This document shows, piece after piece, positions 23,097 to 58,318 of a stretch of 64,000 bases of DNA; the first letter of the stretch is position 1, and every line of letters starts with the position of its first letter. The notes under the pieces are model-generated. The model was not told the origin of the DNA, made no database searches, and saw only the letters and a program-made list of their open reading frames with translations. A program made the translations under genes and the position numbers. This DNA is from Sanguibacter suarezii NBRC 16159 (GTDB taxonomy: Bacteria; Actinomycetota; Actinomycetes; Actinomycetales; Cellulomonadaceae). Location: assembly GCF_001552735.1 (NCBI RefSeq), contig NZ_BCRT01000021.1:372001-436000 (forward strand). The letters are read 5' to 3'.

Positions 23097-23184
23097 CGAA
23101 CTCGTGAGCCCTACGCCGAACTCGTGAGCCACGACTGATCCCATCCCGGTAGCTCACGAGTTCGGCGGACCATTCACGAGTTCG
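23097..23184. repeat. Convergent 20-bp iteron array, copy B (2+2, 24-bp gap)
   Basis: CGAACTCGTGAGCC begins at 23097 and 23117. The reverse complement core CTCACGAGTT begins at 23153, with a variant (TTCACGAGTT) at 23173. The period is 20 bp in both arms. The inner cores are 24 bp apart, 10 bp less than at most other copies. It lies between the convergent ROK and groEL genes. Confidence 0.9.
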
Positions 23185-23249
23185 GCGAGCTCCGGGGCCG
23201 TGGTGTGGGCCCGGTTGGGGGGAAGCGCGCGTTCGGCGCCGGGCAACGA

Positions 23250-23295
23250 CAGAGGGCTGGTCCGCCCGGGGTATCCCGGGCGAACCAGCCCTCTG
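23250..23295 (-). terminator. groEL terminator hairpin
   Basis: CAGAGGGCTGGT (23250-23261) pairs with ACCAGCCCTCTG (23284-23295), and an inner CGCCCGGG/CCCGGGCG stem closes on the GTAT loop. One mismatch separates the two stems. It lies 30 bp past the groEL stop codon, between groEL and repeat copy B. Confidence 0.8.
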
Positions 23296-23324
23296 GCAGC
23301 GCTAAGGCGCAGTGCGGGGTGGAC

Positions 23325-24959
23325 TCAGAAGTCCATGCCGCCCATGCCGCCGTCTCCGCCGCCCATCGGGGCAGCCTTCTCGGGCTTGTCCGCGACGACT
23401 GCCTCGGTGGTGAGGAACAGGGCCGCGATCGAGGCAGCGTTCTGCAGAGCAGAGCGGGTCACCTTGACCGGGTCGTTCACACCAGCGGCGAGCAGGTCCT
23501 CGTAGACGCCGGTCGCGGCGTTGAGGCCGTGGCCGGAGGGGAGGTTGCGGACCTTCTCGGCCACAACTCCACCCTCGAGACCAGCGTTGATCGCGATCTG
23601 CTTGAGCGGAGCGTCGATCGCGGCACGCACGATCTGCGCACCGGTCGCCTCGTCGCCCTCGAGGGCGAGGATGGCGGCAGACTCGAACGCGACCTTGCCA
23701 GCCTGGATGAGAGCGACGCCACCACCGGCGACGATGCCCTCTTCGACGGCTGCCTTGGCGTTGCGCACGGCGTCCTCGATGCGGTGCTTGCGCTCCTTGA
23801 GCTCAACCTCGGTAGCGGCACCGGCCTTGATGACCGCGACACCGCCGGCGAGCTTGGCGAGACGCTCCTGGAGCTTCTCGCGGTCGTAGTCGGAGTCCGA
23901 CTTCTCGATCTCGGAACGGATCTGCTTGACGCGACCGGCGATCTGGTCGACGTCGCCGGAGCCCTCGACGATCGTGGTCTCGTCCTTGGTGACGACGACC
24001 TTGCGGGCCTGGCCGAGCAGGTCCAGGGTCGCGGTCTCCAGCTTGAGGCCGACGGTCTCGGAGATGACCTGACCACCGGTGAGGATGGCGATGTCCTGCA
24101 GGATCGCCTTGCGGCGGTCGCCGAAGCCCGGAGCCTTGACGGCGACGGACTTGAAGGTGCCACGGATCTTGTTGAGCACGAGGGTCGCAAGAGCCTCGCC
24201 CTCGACGTCCTCGGCGATGATGAGCAGCGAGCGACCGGCCTTCATGACCTGGTCGAGCAGCGGCAGCAGGTCCTTGACGTTCGAGATCTTCGACTCGACG
24301 ATGAGGACGTACGGGTCTTCGAGGACAGCTTCCTGACGCTCGGCGTCAGTCTCGAAGTAGCGGGCCAGGAAGCCCTTGTCGAAGCGCATACCCTCGGTGA
24401 GCTCGAGCTCGAGGCCGAAGGTGTTCGACTCCTCGACGGTGATGACACCTTCCTTGCCGACCTTGTCCAGCGCCTCGGCGATGAGCTCGCCGATCGCGGT
24501 GTCCCCGGCCGAGATGGCAGCGGTGGCGGCGATCTCTTCCTTGGTCTCGATGTCCTTGGCGGCGACGAGCAGCTGCTCGATGACGCCCTCGACAGCAGCC
24601 TCGATACCGCGCTTGAGCGCGATCGGGTTGGAGCCGGCAGCAACGTTGCGCAGGCCCTCGCGCACGAGAGCCTGAGCCAGCACGGTAGCCGTGGTCGTTC
24701 CGTCGCCAGCGACGTCGTCCGTCTTCTTGGCGACCTCCTTGACGAGCTCAGCACCGATGCGCTCGAAGGGGTCCTCGAGGTCGATCTCCTTGGCGATGCT
24801 CACACCATCGTTCGTGATGGTGGGCGCGCCCCACTTCTTGTCGAGGACGACGTTGCGACCCTTGGGGCCGAGCGTGACCTTCACGGTGTCGGCGAGGATG
24901 TTGAGTCCACGCTCCATACCGCGACGGGCCTCCTCGTTGAAGGCGATGATTTTAGCCAT
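23325..24959 (-). CDS. groL: Chaperonin GroEL (Hsp60)
   Basis: A 544-residue chaperonin subunit of normal length. It begins [19 protein letters not shown], carries the ATP-site motif [13 protein letters not shown] and ends in the Gly/Met tail GGMGGMDF. It forms the double-ring ATP-dependent folding chamber. ATG 24959 is the family start; an upstream in-frame ATG at 25058 lies in the leader. No groES is adjacent, so this is a monocistronic groEL, common in actinobacteria that keep a second copy with groES. Two CIRCE elements upstream indicate HrcA control. Confidence 0.97.
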
Positions 24960-25079
24960 TGGGGTGTGATCCTCCGCTGGTGGCGTGTGGTGGTCGAGCG
25001 GCGCCCGCGACGGACGGCGAGGATCGAAGGCGTTCATGTCACGCCGCCGGGTCCGCACCTCACTGATCGACCGGTGTTT

Positions 25080-25106
25080 CTGTCACTCTCAGTATGAGAG
25101 TGCTAA
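25080..25106 (-). promoter_or_regulatory. CIRCE element 1 (HrcA operator)
   Basis: On the minus strand TTAGCACTC, nine bases, then GAGTGACAG; the consensus is TTAGCACTC-N9-GAGTGCTAA. The left arm is perfect and the spacer is exactly 9. It lies about 120 bp upstream of the groEL start codon. Confidence 0.9.
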
Positions 25107-57198: not shown

Positions 57199-57313
57199 GC
57201 CGACCACCCTACGGTCAGTGACCTGCGGCGCAGCGCACCCCGGTACGGTGGTGGCGTTCGGGCGGCGTCGATCCGCAGCAATCCGGGAGCGCCGAGAGCG
57301 CATGTCGCGAAAT

Positions 57314-57346
57314 GTTCATCTGGAGTCGGTTCGGCGTTCACCCAGA
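57314..57346 (+). promoter_or_regulatory. PHO-box-like triple repeat upstream of phoU
   Basis: GTTCATCtgga, GTCGGTTcggc and GTTCACCcaga begin at 57314, 57325 and 57336, an exact 11-bp period; the middle unit is weaker. It lies between divergent senX3 and phoU. Confidence 0.75.
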
Positions 57347-57410
57347 CGCCGCCCGGTCCACACCTGATGTTGTCATCGTTGCGGCTGCACCACACCACGA
57401 GAGGGAACAC

Positions 57411-58082
57411 ATGCGCGAGATCTTCGAAGCCGAGCTCAAGCAGATCGGCGATGACCTGGCGGAGATGAGCCGCCTGGTCGAGTCTGCCATCAGCCGTGCG
57501 GGCACCGCCCTGCTCACCGCTGACCTGCAGCTGGCTCAGTCCGTCATCGCCGACGACCGCACCATCGACCAGCTCGAGCGCGTCCTCGACGAGCGCTGCG
57601 TGCTGCTGCTGGCCCAGCAGGCACCGGTCGCCACCGACCTGCGCGTGGTGGTCAGTGCCCTGCGGATGAGCGCCACCCTGGAGCGGATGGGCGACCTCGC
57701 CCGGCACATCGCCCAGGTGGCCCGCGGACGCTACCCGCGTCACGCCATCGCCCCGGTCGTCGAGGGCACCTTCGCCTCCATGCACGACGCCGCCACCCGC
57801 GTGGCGCGGCGCACCACGACGCTGCTCACCACGCGCGACCTCACCGTGGCCAGCAACATCGAGCGTGACGACGACCTCCTGGACGCCCTGCACCAGGACA
57901 CCTTCGCCGCTCTGCTCACCGACTCCTGGACCGGCGACGCCCAGGCCACGATCGACGTGACCCTCGTGGGTCGCTACTACGAGCGCTTCGGTGACCACGG
58001 CGTCTCCATCGCCCGCCGCGTGGTGTACCTGGTCACCGGCGACTTCGCCGACGAACGCGGCACCCCCTCCATCCCAGCCTGA
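57411..58082 (+). CDS. phoU: Phosphate regulator PhoU
   Basis: A 223-residue all-helical protein made of two similar three-helix repeats, with REIFEAELKQIGDDLAEMSR at the start and MSATLERMGDLARHIAQV and YYERFGDHGVSIARRVVYLV as the two metal-site ExxxD-like stretches. It links the Pst transporter to the sensor kinase and represses the Pho regulon when phosphate is sufficient. ATG 57411 has GAGGGA upstream. It is divergent from senX3 and shares the PHO-box region. Repeat copy F follows. Confidence 0.95.
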   Translation: MREIFEAELKQIGDDLAEMSRLVESAISRAGTALLTADLQLAQSVIADDRTIDQLERVLDERCVLLLAQQAPVATDLRVVVSALRMSATLERMGDLARHIAQVARGRYPRHAIAPVVEGTFASMHDAATRVARRTTTLLTTRDLTVASNIERDDDLLDALHQDTFAALLTDSWTGDAQATIDVTLVGRYYERFGDHGVSIARRVVYLVTGDFADERGTPSIPA

Positions 58083-58160
58083 CCCGCCGTCCCCCTGCTT
58101 TCGCTCCCCTCGATCCCCCTTCCCCCTCCCCTCGATCCCCCTCCCCCGCTCACCTCCTCC

Positions 58161-58318
58161 CGAGGTCGTGACCGCTGCGCCGAGCTCGTGAGCCCTCCGT
58201 CGAACTCGTGAGCCAGCGGTGTCTTCTCTCGTGAGGCCCCCCGTAGCTCACGAGTTCGCGGAACGATTCACGAGTTCGTGAGGTGGGTCACGAGTTCGTG
58301 AGGTGGGTGGCGAGTGCG
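58161..58318. repeat. Convergent 20-bp iteron array, copy F (3+4, 34-bp gap)
   Basis: Left-arm units begin at 58161 (CGAGGTCGTGACC), 58181 (CGAGCTCGTGAGCC) and 58201 (CGAACTCGTGAGCC). Right-arm units begin at 58247, 58267, 58287 and 58307, the last degenerate (GTGGCGAGTG). The period is 20 bp and the inner gap exactly 34 bp. Outer units diverge more than inner ones. It lies in the 331-bp gap between the convergent phoU and gpmA genes, otherwise occupied only by the gpmA terminator and a C-rich stretch. Confidence 0.92.

Follow-up and report, generated by a model that had tools for sequence, protein, structure and literature searches.

Mirrored 20-bp iteron arrays at conserved places in Sanguibacter chromosomes: candidate docking sites for a DNA-binding protein

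Introduction

Direct repeats of about 20 bp that are read by a DNA-binding protein, some of them in convergent order, are known as iterons at plasmid and phage origins and at transposon ends, where Tn7- or Mu-type transposases read the end repeats. Six intergenic arrays of comparable layout occur in a 64,000-nucleotide stretch of the Sanguibacter suarezii NBRC 16159 genome (contig NZ_BCRT01000021.1, positions 372,001 to 436,000; the window in what follows), and they are the subject of this study. Two other described systems come close. Repetitive extragenic palindromic (REP) sequences are defined in part by a GTAG or CGTC tag next to the stem of most members, according to portions of one report (PMC3733652), and REP doublets forming hairpins (REPINs) also keep conserved distances between their inverted repeats, as stated in part of another (PMC3116915). 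The binding sites of Noc (NBS) are described in sections of a third as absent from the terminus region, and those of SlmA (SBS) as similarly distributed (PMC4331003). Actinobacteria are said, in excerpts of two further papers, to lack known key division regulators (PMC7968930, PMC7118173).

The Sanguibacter arrays resemble REP sequences, REPINs and bacterial interspersed mosaic elements (BIMEs) in being dispersed intergenic inverted repeats with conserved ends and fixed spacing, in families that vary by genome. Unlike them, the 20-bp iteron arrays extend outside the palindrome, their centres are not common to copies and most of their places are kept between two species; unlike those moved by a REP-associated tyrosine transposase (RAYT), they occur with no PF01797 match in six genomes. 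With NBS and SBS they share symmetry, numbers in the tens, unrelated neighbours and, in one family, scarcity near the terminus. However, they are not single palindromes, are lineage-specific, have a putative protein only, and show a depletion that is incomplete and not seen for a second family. The ~20-bp direct repeats and their convergent arrangement are likewise those of plasmid, phage and transposon iterons, whereas many chromosomal copies at gene 3' ends are unlike plasmid and phage iterons. In our judgement it is somewhat probable that the arrays are dyad-symmetric, helically phased docking sites for a putative sequence-specific DNA-binding protein, likely one of chromosome organisation.

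Results and Discussion

Architecture of the arrays

The six intergenic sites pointed out in a first-pass annotation of the window, made by a model from the letters alone, were all found in place, as convergent arrays or pairs of CGAACTCGTGAG. On the approach to the centre the core AACTCGTGAG (wider form CGAACTCGTGAG, 12 letters) recurs every 20 bp, and beyond the centre its reverse complement recurs with equal spacing, so the + and - arms keep the same period and converge in register, as that annotation described. The sites, all assigned to what is here called family I, are as follows.

Site A, 1..91: - units at 40, 60 and 80; the centre and - arm lie in the window and the + arm upstream of its edge; profile match at G000:C21:371976-372070.
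Site B, 23097..23184: + units at 23099 and 23119, - units at 23153 and 23173; 24-bp centre.
Site C, 31159..31276: + units at 31161, 31181 and 31201, - units at 31245 and 31265; 34-bp centre; convergent genes.
Site D, 31988..32044: + unit at 31990, - unit at 32033; minimal element with a 33-bp centre, between divergent genes.
Site E, 41362..41479: + units at 41364, 41384 and 41404, - units at 41448 and 41468; 34-bp centre; convergent genes.
Site F, 58163..58298: + units at 58183 and 58203, - units at 58247, 58267 and 58287, with a degenerate extra + unit at 58163; 34-bp centre; convergent genes.

The spacing of units inside the arms of the window arrays is exactly 20 bp. The claim of an exact period at all six sites therefore stands for every multi-unit arm but not for site D, where no period is visible because each arm has a single unit.

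The geometry was extended to 66 extracted family-I elements, 28 from S. suarezii (G000; 3,802,660 bases in 31 contigs) and 38 from S. gelidistatuariae ISLP-3 (G005). Since the pattern behind most extracted elements permitted anything from 20 to 50 bases to separate the 7-base core parts, the narrow range of centre lengths is not built in: the inner cores are 33 bp apart in 37 of the 38 G005 elements and 32 bp apart in one, while the 28 G000 elements have 34 bp (21), 33 bp (4) or 24 bp (3). Out of 105 family-I arms with an exact inner core, 84 carry a second unit at 20 bp and 18 a third at 40 bp, with up to 3 mismatches allowed. Units per arm range from 1 to 5; the two arms are unequal in 17/28 G000 and 11/38 G005 elements, and no significant correlation links their unit numbers (Spearman 0.21 in both species; p 0.29 and 0.21). 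Just outside the 66 elements, C makes up 58% of the left-hand DNA and G 57% of the right-hand DNA, so the mirror asymmetry reaches past the units.

Abundance and distribution among genomes

The first-pass annotation held that its family claim would fail if the pattern were absent outside the window or no commoner than in shuffled sequence. It does recur beyond the window: genome-wide, the tandem pair AACTCGTGAG-N10-AACTCGTGA occurs 12 times exactly in G000 versus 0 for a reversed control, and CGAACTCGTGAG with at most one mismatch 130 times versus 15 for its control. A detector blind to the core, run on loci mostly picked because of their elements and partly overlapping (hence a few double counts), found 23 convergent arrays of period 20 in G000, 32 in G005, 12 in G001 and 3 in S. 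keddieii ST-74 (G003), versus none in one shuffled copy per locus; at periods 18, 19, 21 and 22, run without shuffles, it found 4 altogether. No arrays were detected in 30 kb of G002 and 35 kb of G004 (G001, G002 and G004 being other Sanguibacter genomes).

A profile built from 50 aligned family-I elements, which needs no exact core and whose matches were grouped into elements by place, gave 28 elements in G000 and 42 in G005, in agreement with a dispersed family. Its matches in G001 to G004 were weak (5, 2, 8 and 2, respectively), with one, at 23 bits, among the matches listed. Across 149 genomes, G000 and 148 relatives, the tandem pair was found in two, G000 and G005 of the same genus; one single match each occurred in Arcticibacter and Streptomyces. 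Phage or plasmid iterons were rejected as an identity, with no match to site C among the records of phages (50,697) and plasmids (72,556) and none to the tandem pattern in the viral contigs searched. Literature searches for repeats in Sanguibacter and for palindromic repeats in actinobacteria brought up no description of these arrays in the portions covered.

Conservation of place, core and spacing

Comparison of flanks pairs 21/28 G000 elements with a G005 counterpart in the matching position; some pairs have just one matching flank, and two neighbouring G000 elements share a partner. A separate test with 1.2-kb flanks, in which alternative pairings were counted too, paired family-I elements by both flanks in 17 cases and by one in 6. 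At site F the G005 array matches on both flanks. Site B lies between an ROK-family gene and groEL, which are convergent, and a family-I array adjoins groEL in G005 too, with one flank matching.

Alignable flanking stretches of the two genomes are ~75 to 93% identical. Within the elements, the innermost cores of partners are 94% identical (395/420), partly through ascertainment as discussed below, and those of non-orthologous pairs 94.5%. The other parts are more divergent: linkers 59.5% between partners versus 58.8% between non-orthologous copies, outer centres 66% versus 64.2%, inner centres 47% versus 40.9%, and outer flanks, intergenic DNA that does not align across the two species, 33% between partners. 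Place, core and spacing have been retained while the remaining sequence of the element drifted.

The site E slot holds a family-I element in G000, a family-II element in G005 and a family-III array in G001, and none was seen there in G002 to G004.

A second family of the same build

Family III, first met at this slot of G001, is a convergent 20-bp array with a different core, CGAGGTCGTAC. Its exact pattern AGGTCGTAC..GTACGACCT has 16 copies in G001, 2 in G003 and 0 in the other four Sanguibacter genomes, and spans 63 bp in 17 of these 18. Among 34 arms with an exact inner core, the second unit stands at exactly -20 in 31 and the third at -40 in 17, with up to 3 mismatches allowed. When the cores are aligned, CGA-AC-TCGT-GA-G of family I corresponds to CGA-GG-TCGT-AC-G of family III. 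The distance from CGA to TCG is 67 bp in family III and 57-58 or 48 bp in family I; centre lengths thus differ in steps of ~10 bp, or one helical turn, the family-III centre being ~10 bp longer.

Pairing between the arms and the possibility of an RNA element

If the arms were kept for pairing, the variable positions should covary. No positive covariation or compensatory change was found between family-I arms in G000 and G005. Mirror matches in the linker amount to 0.433 versus 0.502 expected in G000 (z -2.4) and 0.519 versus 0.571 in G005 (z -2.7), a negative sign that is not pressed since off-register controls are as large and a polarity of the arms is possible. At most three linker mismatches occur in 0/21 G000 elements (16% expected) and 4/37 G005 elements (33% expected). 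The second halves of the units, which the first-pass annotation called partly complementary across arms, are only partly so, with 3 to 8 of 10 linker positions mismatched between arms.

That annotation also suggested a bidirectional RNA processing or termination structure, and an RNA-level hairpin ending or stabilising transcripts at gene 3' ends appears distinctly unlikely to us. Several features speak for it: convergent placement in 34/66 elements versus 32/322 element-free gaps, strong folding of all five family-I sequences tried, and positive covariation in the stems of family II. However, RNA folds strongly for all seven sequences tried, which is expected because any layout of this kind must fold, whereas a hairpin needs neither an exact 20-bp period nor a fixed centre, the arms often differ in unit number, and compensatory change is lacking in family I. 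At site E, the one site scanned (window 41250-41700), no intrinsic terminator with a stem-loop and T-run was present. A known RNA family was rejected since no Rfam match above the curated score lies on the elements: a scan of the window and seven other loci gave only tRNA, msiK and c-di-AMP leader matches. Two of these lie in the window, a tRNA at 33266-33338 and an msiK leader RNA (Rfam RF01747) at 38747-38806.

Gene context

Gene orientation, which the first-pass annotation had proposed to count, was taken from codon-based gene calls made in this analysis. Family-I elements lie in convergent gaps in 34/66 cases, in tandem gaps in 27 and in divergent gaps in 5, while 322 element-free gaps of at least 100 bp in the loci analysed comprise 32 convergent, 177 tandem and 113 divergent ones; none of the 66 lies inside a called gene. 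Family I therefore favours gene 3' ends. A scan of 35 neighbouring proteins showed no common function, and an operator of a regulon was rejected because these neighbours have no relation to one another and mostly face the arrays with their 3' ends.

Mobile-element readings

A REP or BIME moved by a RAYT, the first candidate role of the first-pass annotation, was abandoned. No Y1_Tnp (PF01797) match was found in any of the six Sanguibacter genomes, while the same search was positive in 5/14 control genomes, and the 21/28 elements at conserved places, with unrelated centres, are not recent copies. The many extragenic palindromic copies expected of REP sequences are present (28 in G000, 42 in G005). 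The consensus of 50 aligned elements has no GTAG or CGTC tag beside the stem, although some copies have GTAG beside the core, and the internal sequence that copies of a miniature inverted-repeat transposable element (MITE) share is lacking, with an inner-centre identity of 0.41 between non-orthologous copies.

In a broader form, a REPIN- or MITE-like selfish element would be moved by a transposase acting in trans that recognises the iterons or the hairpin, and the spacing would reflect the transposition unit. Several palindrome families of fixed length do coexist (exact copies of family II: 48 in G005, 17 in G000; of family III: 16 in G001, 2 in G003), slots such as site E are empty or differently filled between species, and REPINs likewise have conserved inverted-repeat distances, as part of one report states (PMC3116915). 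Nevertheless, such an element seems rather unlikely, since the centres are not common to copies, places were conserved while centres drifted, arms of 1 to 5 units leave no fixed outer ends, and the transposase search, which covered Y1_Tnp, was negative in all six genomes. Were the arrays selfish DNA, a palindromic repeat that persists at conserved addresses while its centres drift, and with no RAYT, would still be unusual.

Distribution around the terminus

The chromosome of S. keddieii ST-74 (4,253,413 bp, as given in part of PMC3035225) served as the map, anchored by dnaA (G003:8-1609) and parB (4,246,992) because the GC skew of 20 chromosome samples was too noisy for origin and terminus. 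None of the 21 paired family-I elements maps within 1.34-2.86 Mb, an interval whose limits were set by those very elements; 17 of 19 further family-I flank segments could be mapped, and a single one (L115) fell inside. The mapping left out the first elements of L134 and L136, which lie beside mapped ones, and sites C to E were placed by synteny.

With the pattern already noticed, the mapping anchors were used to define the terminus contigs, namely C10 beyond 100 kb, C11, C13 and C15 of G000 and C10, C15 and C11 beyond 40 kb of G005 (~31% and ~28% of the genomes, respectively). They hold 1/28 family-I elements in G000 and 2/42 in G005 (3/70; binomial p 4e-4 and 2e-4, which are not independent), the two in G005 being among the four added there by the profile. 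Family II has 20/65 in these contigs (Fisher p 5e-5 against family I), in a comparison that uses profile matches for family I but exact-pattern matches for family II. This contig census supersedes an early mapping count for 1.34-2.86 Mb (family I 1/38, family II 12/20), which was weak: 25 family-II loci were chosen and 5 did not map, its family-I count was made before the profile added four elements in G005, and paralogue-like matches occurred (L237, L241 and L216/L217 disagree with their own contigs, and L213 maps elsewhere).

As a special case of docking sites, the arrays could be nucleoid-occlusion or origin-domain marks, read by a Noc- or SlmA-like protein and missing from the terminus. 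The contrast between 3/70 and 20/65 is in its favour, as is the similar distribution of Noc and SlmA sites described in sections of PMC4331003. This special case looks quite improbable to us, however, as the depletion is not absolute, was seen post hoc and compares families counted by different methods, a family-III member lies at 2.42 Mb of S. keddieii, and no Noc-type ParB paralogue exists in G000 or G005, each having a single ParB-family (PF02195) match. Contigs G000:C21 and G005:C12 each join regions near 0.94 and 3.43 Mb of S. keddieii, which is consistent with an inversion around the terminus common to G000 and G005.

A proposed mode of action

The fixed period, centre lengths in whole-turn steps, absence of covariation, often unequal arms and switched core fit double-stranded DNA that is read by a sequence-specific protein. 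Addresses that are conserved, next to genes with no shared function, agree with a role at the level of the whole chromosome, and the scarcity of family I in terminus contigs (1/28 and 2/42) is a further point in favour of the docking-site reading. The symmetric protein-binding array that the first-pass annotation listed among its possibilities is the one we retain. Under this proposal, copies of the protein, presumably a single one in each lineage, would bind the ~12-bp units side by side, one per 20 bp, a distance of about two helical turns, along both arms. The two arms would be joined across a dyad-symmetric centre held to ~one-turn steps in length, from 24 bp to 32-34 bp and to a further ~10 bp in family III. 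Most arrays stay clear of promoters, and they have long been retained at the same chromosomal places; between Sanguibacter lineages the recognised word has switched, as though protein and sites had coevolved. The protein would most likely serve to organise the chromosome, by bridging, anchoring or marking DNA, and not to regulate neighbouring genes.

Several points weigh against this proposal. The 94% core identity is partly ascertainment, because the 38 G005 elements were first located through exact inner cores; the profile search added only 4 to them, which implies that elements with decayed cores are few. Identity at second-unit positions is 66% between partners, the second unit being missing in some copies. 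Arms are equal in 27/38 G005 elements (11/28 in G000). Below-chance arm complementarity is not specific, as off-register controls reach z -3.3 (G000, shift -2) and +2.7 (G005, shift -1), and the arms may have a polarity, those of G000 often ending in GCCG at one side but in CGCG opposite. The palindromic layout gives very stable RNA hairpins, with z from -5.3 to -9.2 in five family-I sequences. No array-binding protein was identified in G000 and G005 by a search that covered the ParB family (PF02195). The terminus depletion was seen post hoc with borders taken from the data, and three family-I elements lie there. A family-III array (L277) lies at 2.42 Mb in an S. keddieii sample that was placed arbitrarily; therefore the depletion is not general for this class of arrays.

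Polarity of the G000 arms with respect to replication was considered and dropped, both directions being seen by eye in both chromosome halves.

A stronger form of the docking-site proposal is a Sanguibacter chromosome-organising system, in which a DNA-binding protein would assemble on mirrored, helically phased 20-bp iteron arrays at fixed addresses, largely off the terminus in one lineage, and in which the protein and all its sites would have switched word from CGA-AC-TCGT-GA-G to CGA-GG-TCGT-AC-G. We regard this full form as unlikely. If a protein does stand behind the arrays, they would represent a site-specific chromosome-organising or marking system in actinobacteria. They would then also provide a natural experiment on a joint change of specificity, in a single protein and in dozens of its sites across the genome.

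Family II and related repeats

One family-II element lies in the window.

Family-II element, 3030..3091 (G000:C21:375030-375091): 62-bp palindrome GCTGAGTGC...GCACTCAGC without 20-bp iterons, between convergent genes.

The exact pattern GCTGAGTGC..GCACTCAGC occurs 48 times in G005, 17 in G000 and 0 in the other four genomes, with a length of 62 bp in 54/65. Its 127 arms show no period peak, and no listed offset is above 2. Several inner sequence types and an asymmetric loop occur. The stems covary positively (positions 10-20 of type II-A, z +3.5; type II-B, z +5.8, partly subfamily structure), and places turn over between the species, with 3 pairs matching on both flanks and 2 on one. Family II therefore looks REPIN-like, without a RAYT.

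The sequences GACACGCC / GGCGTGTC recur in almost every family-III centre and also in some of those of family II, a pattern resembling an exchange of inner modules and outer cores from one family to the other. A mirrored repeat in G000 (C8; L109:2020-2090) has the core GAGGTCGTCT, which resembles that of family III, at 19-bp spacing. Weakly related arrays with CGAGCTCGTGAG-like cores and a 19-bp period are present in G003 (L297:3914-4006, the 23-bit profile match listed among the weak ones) and in G001 (L091:1480-1571).

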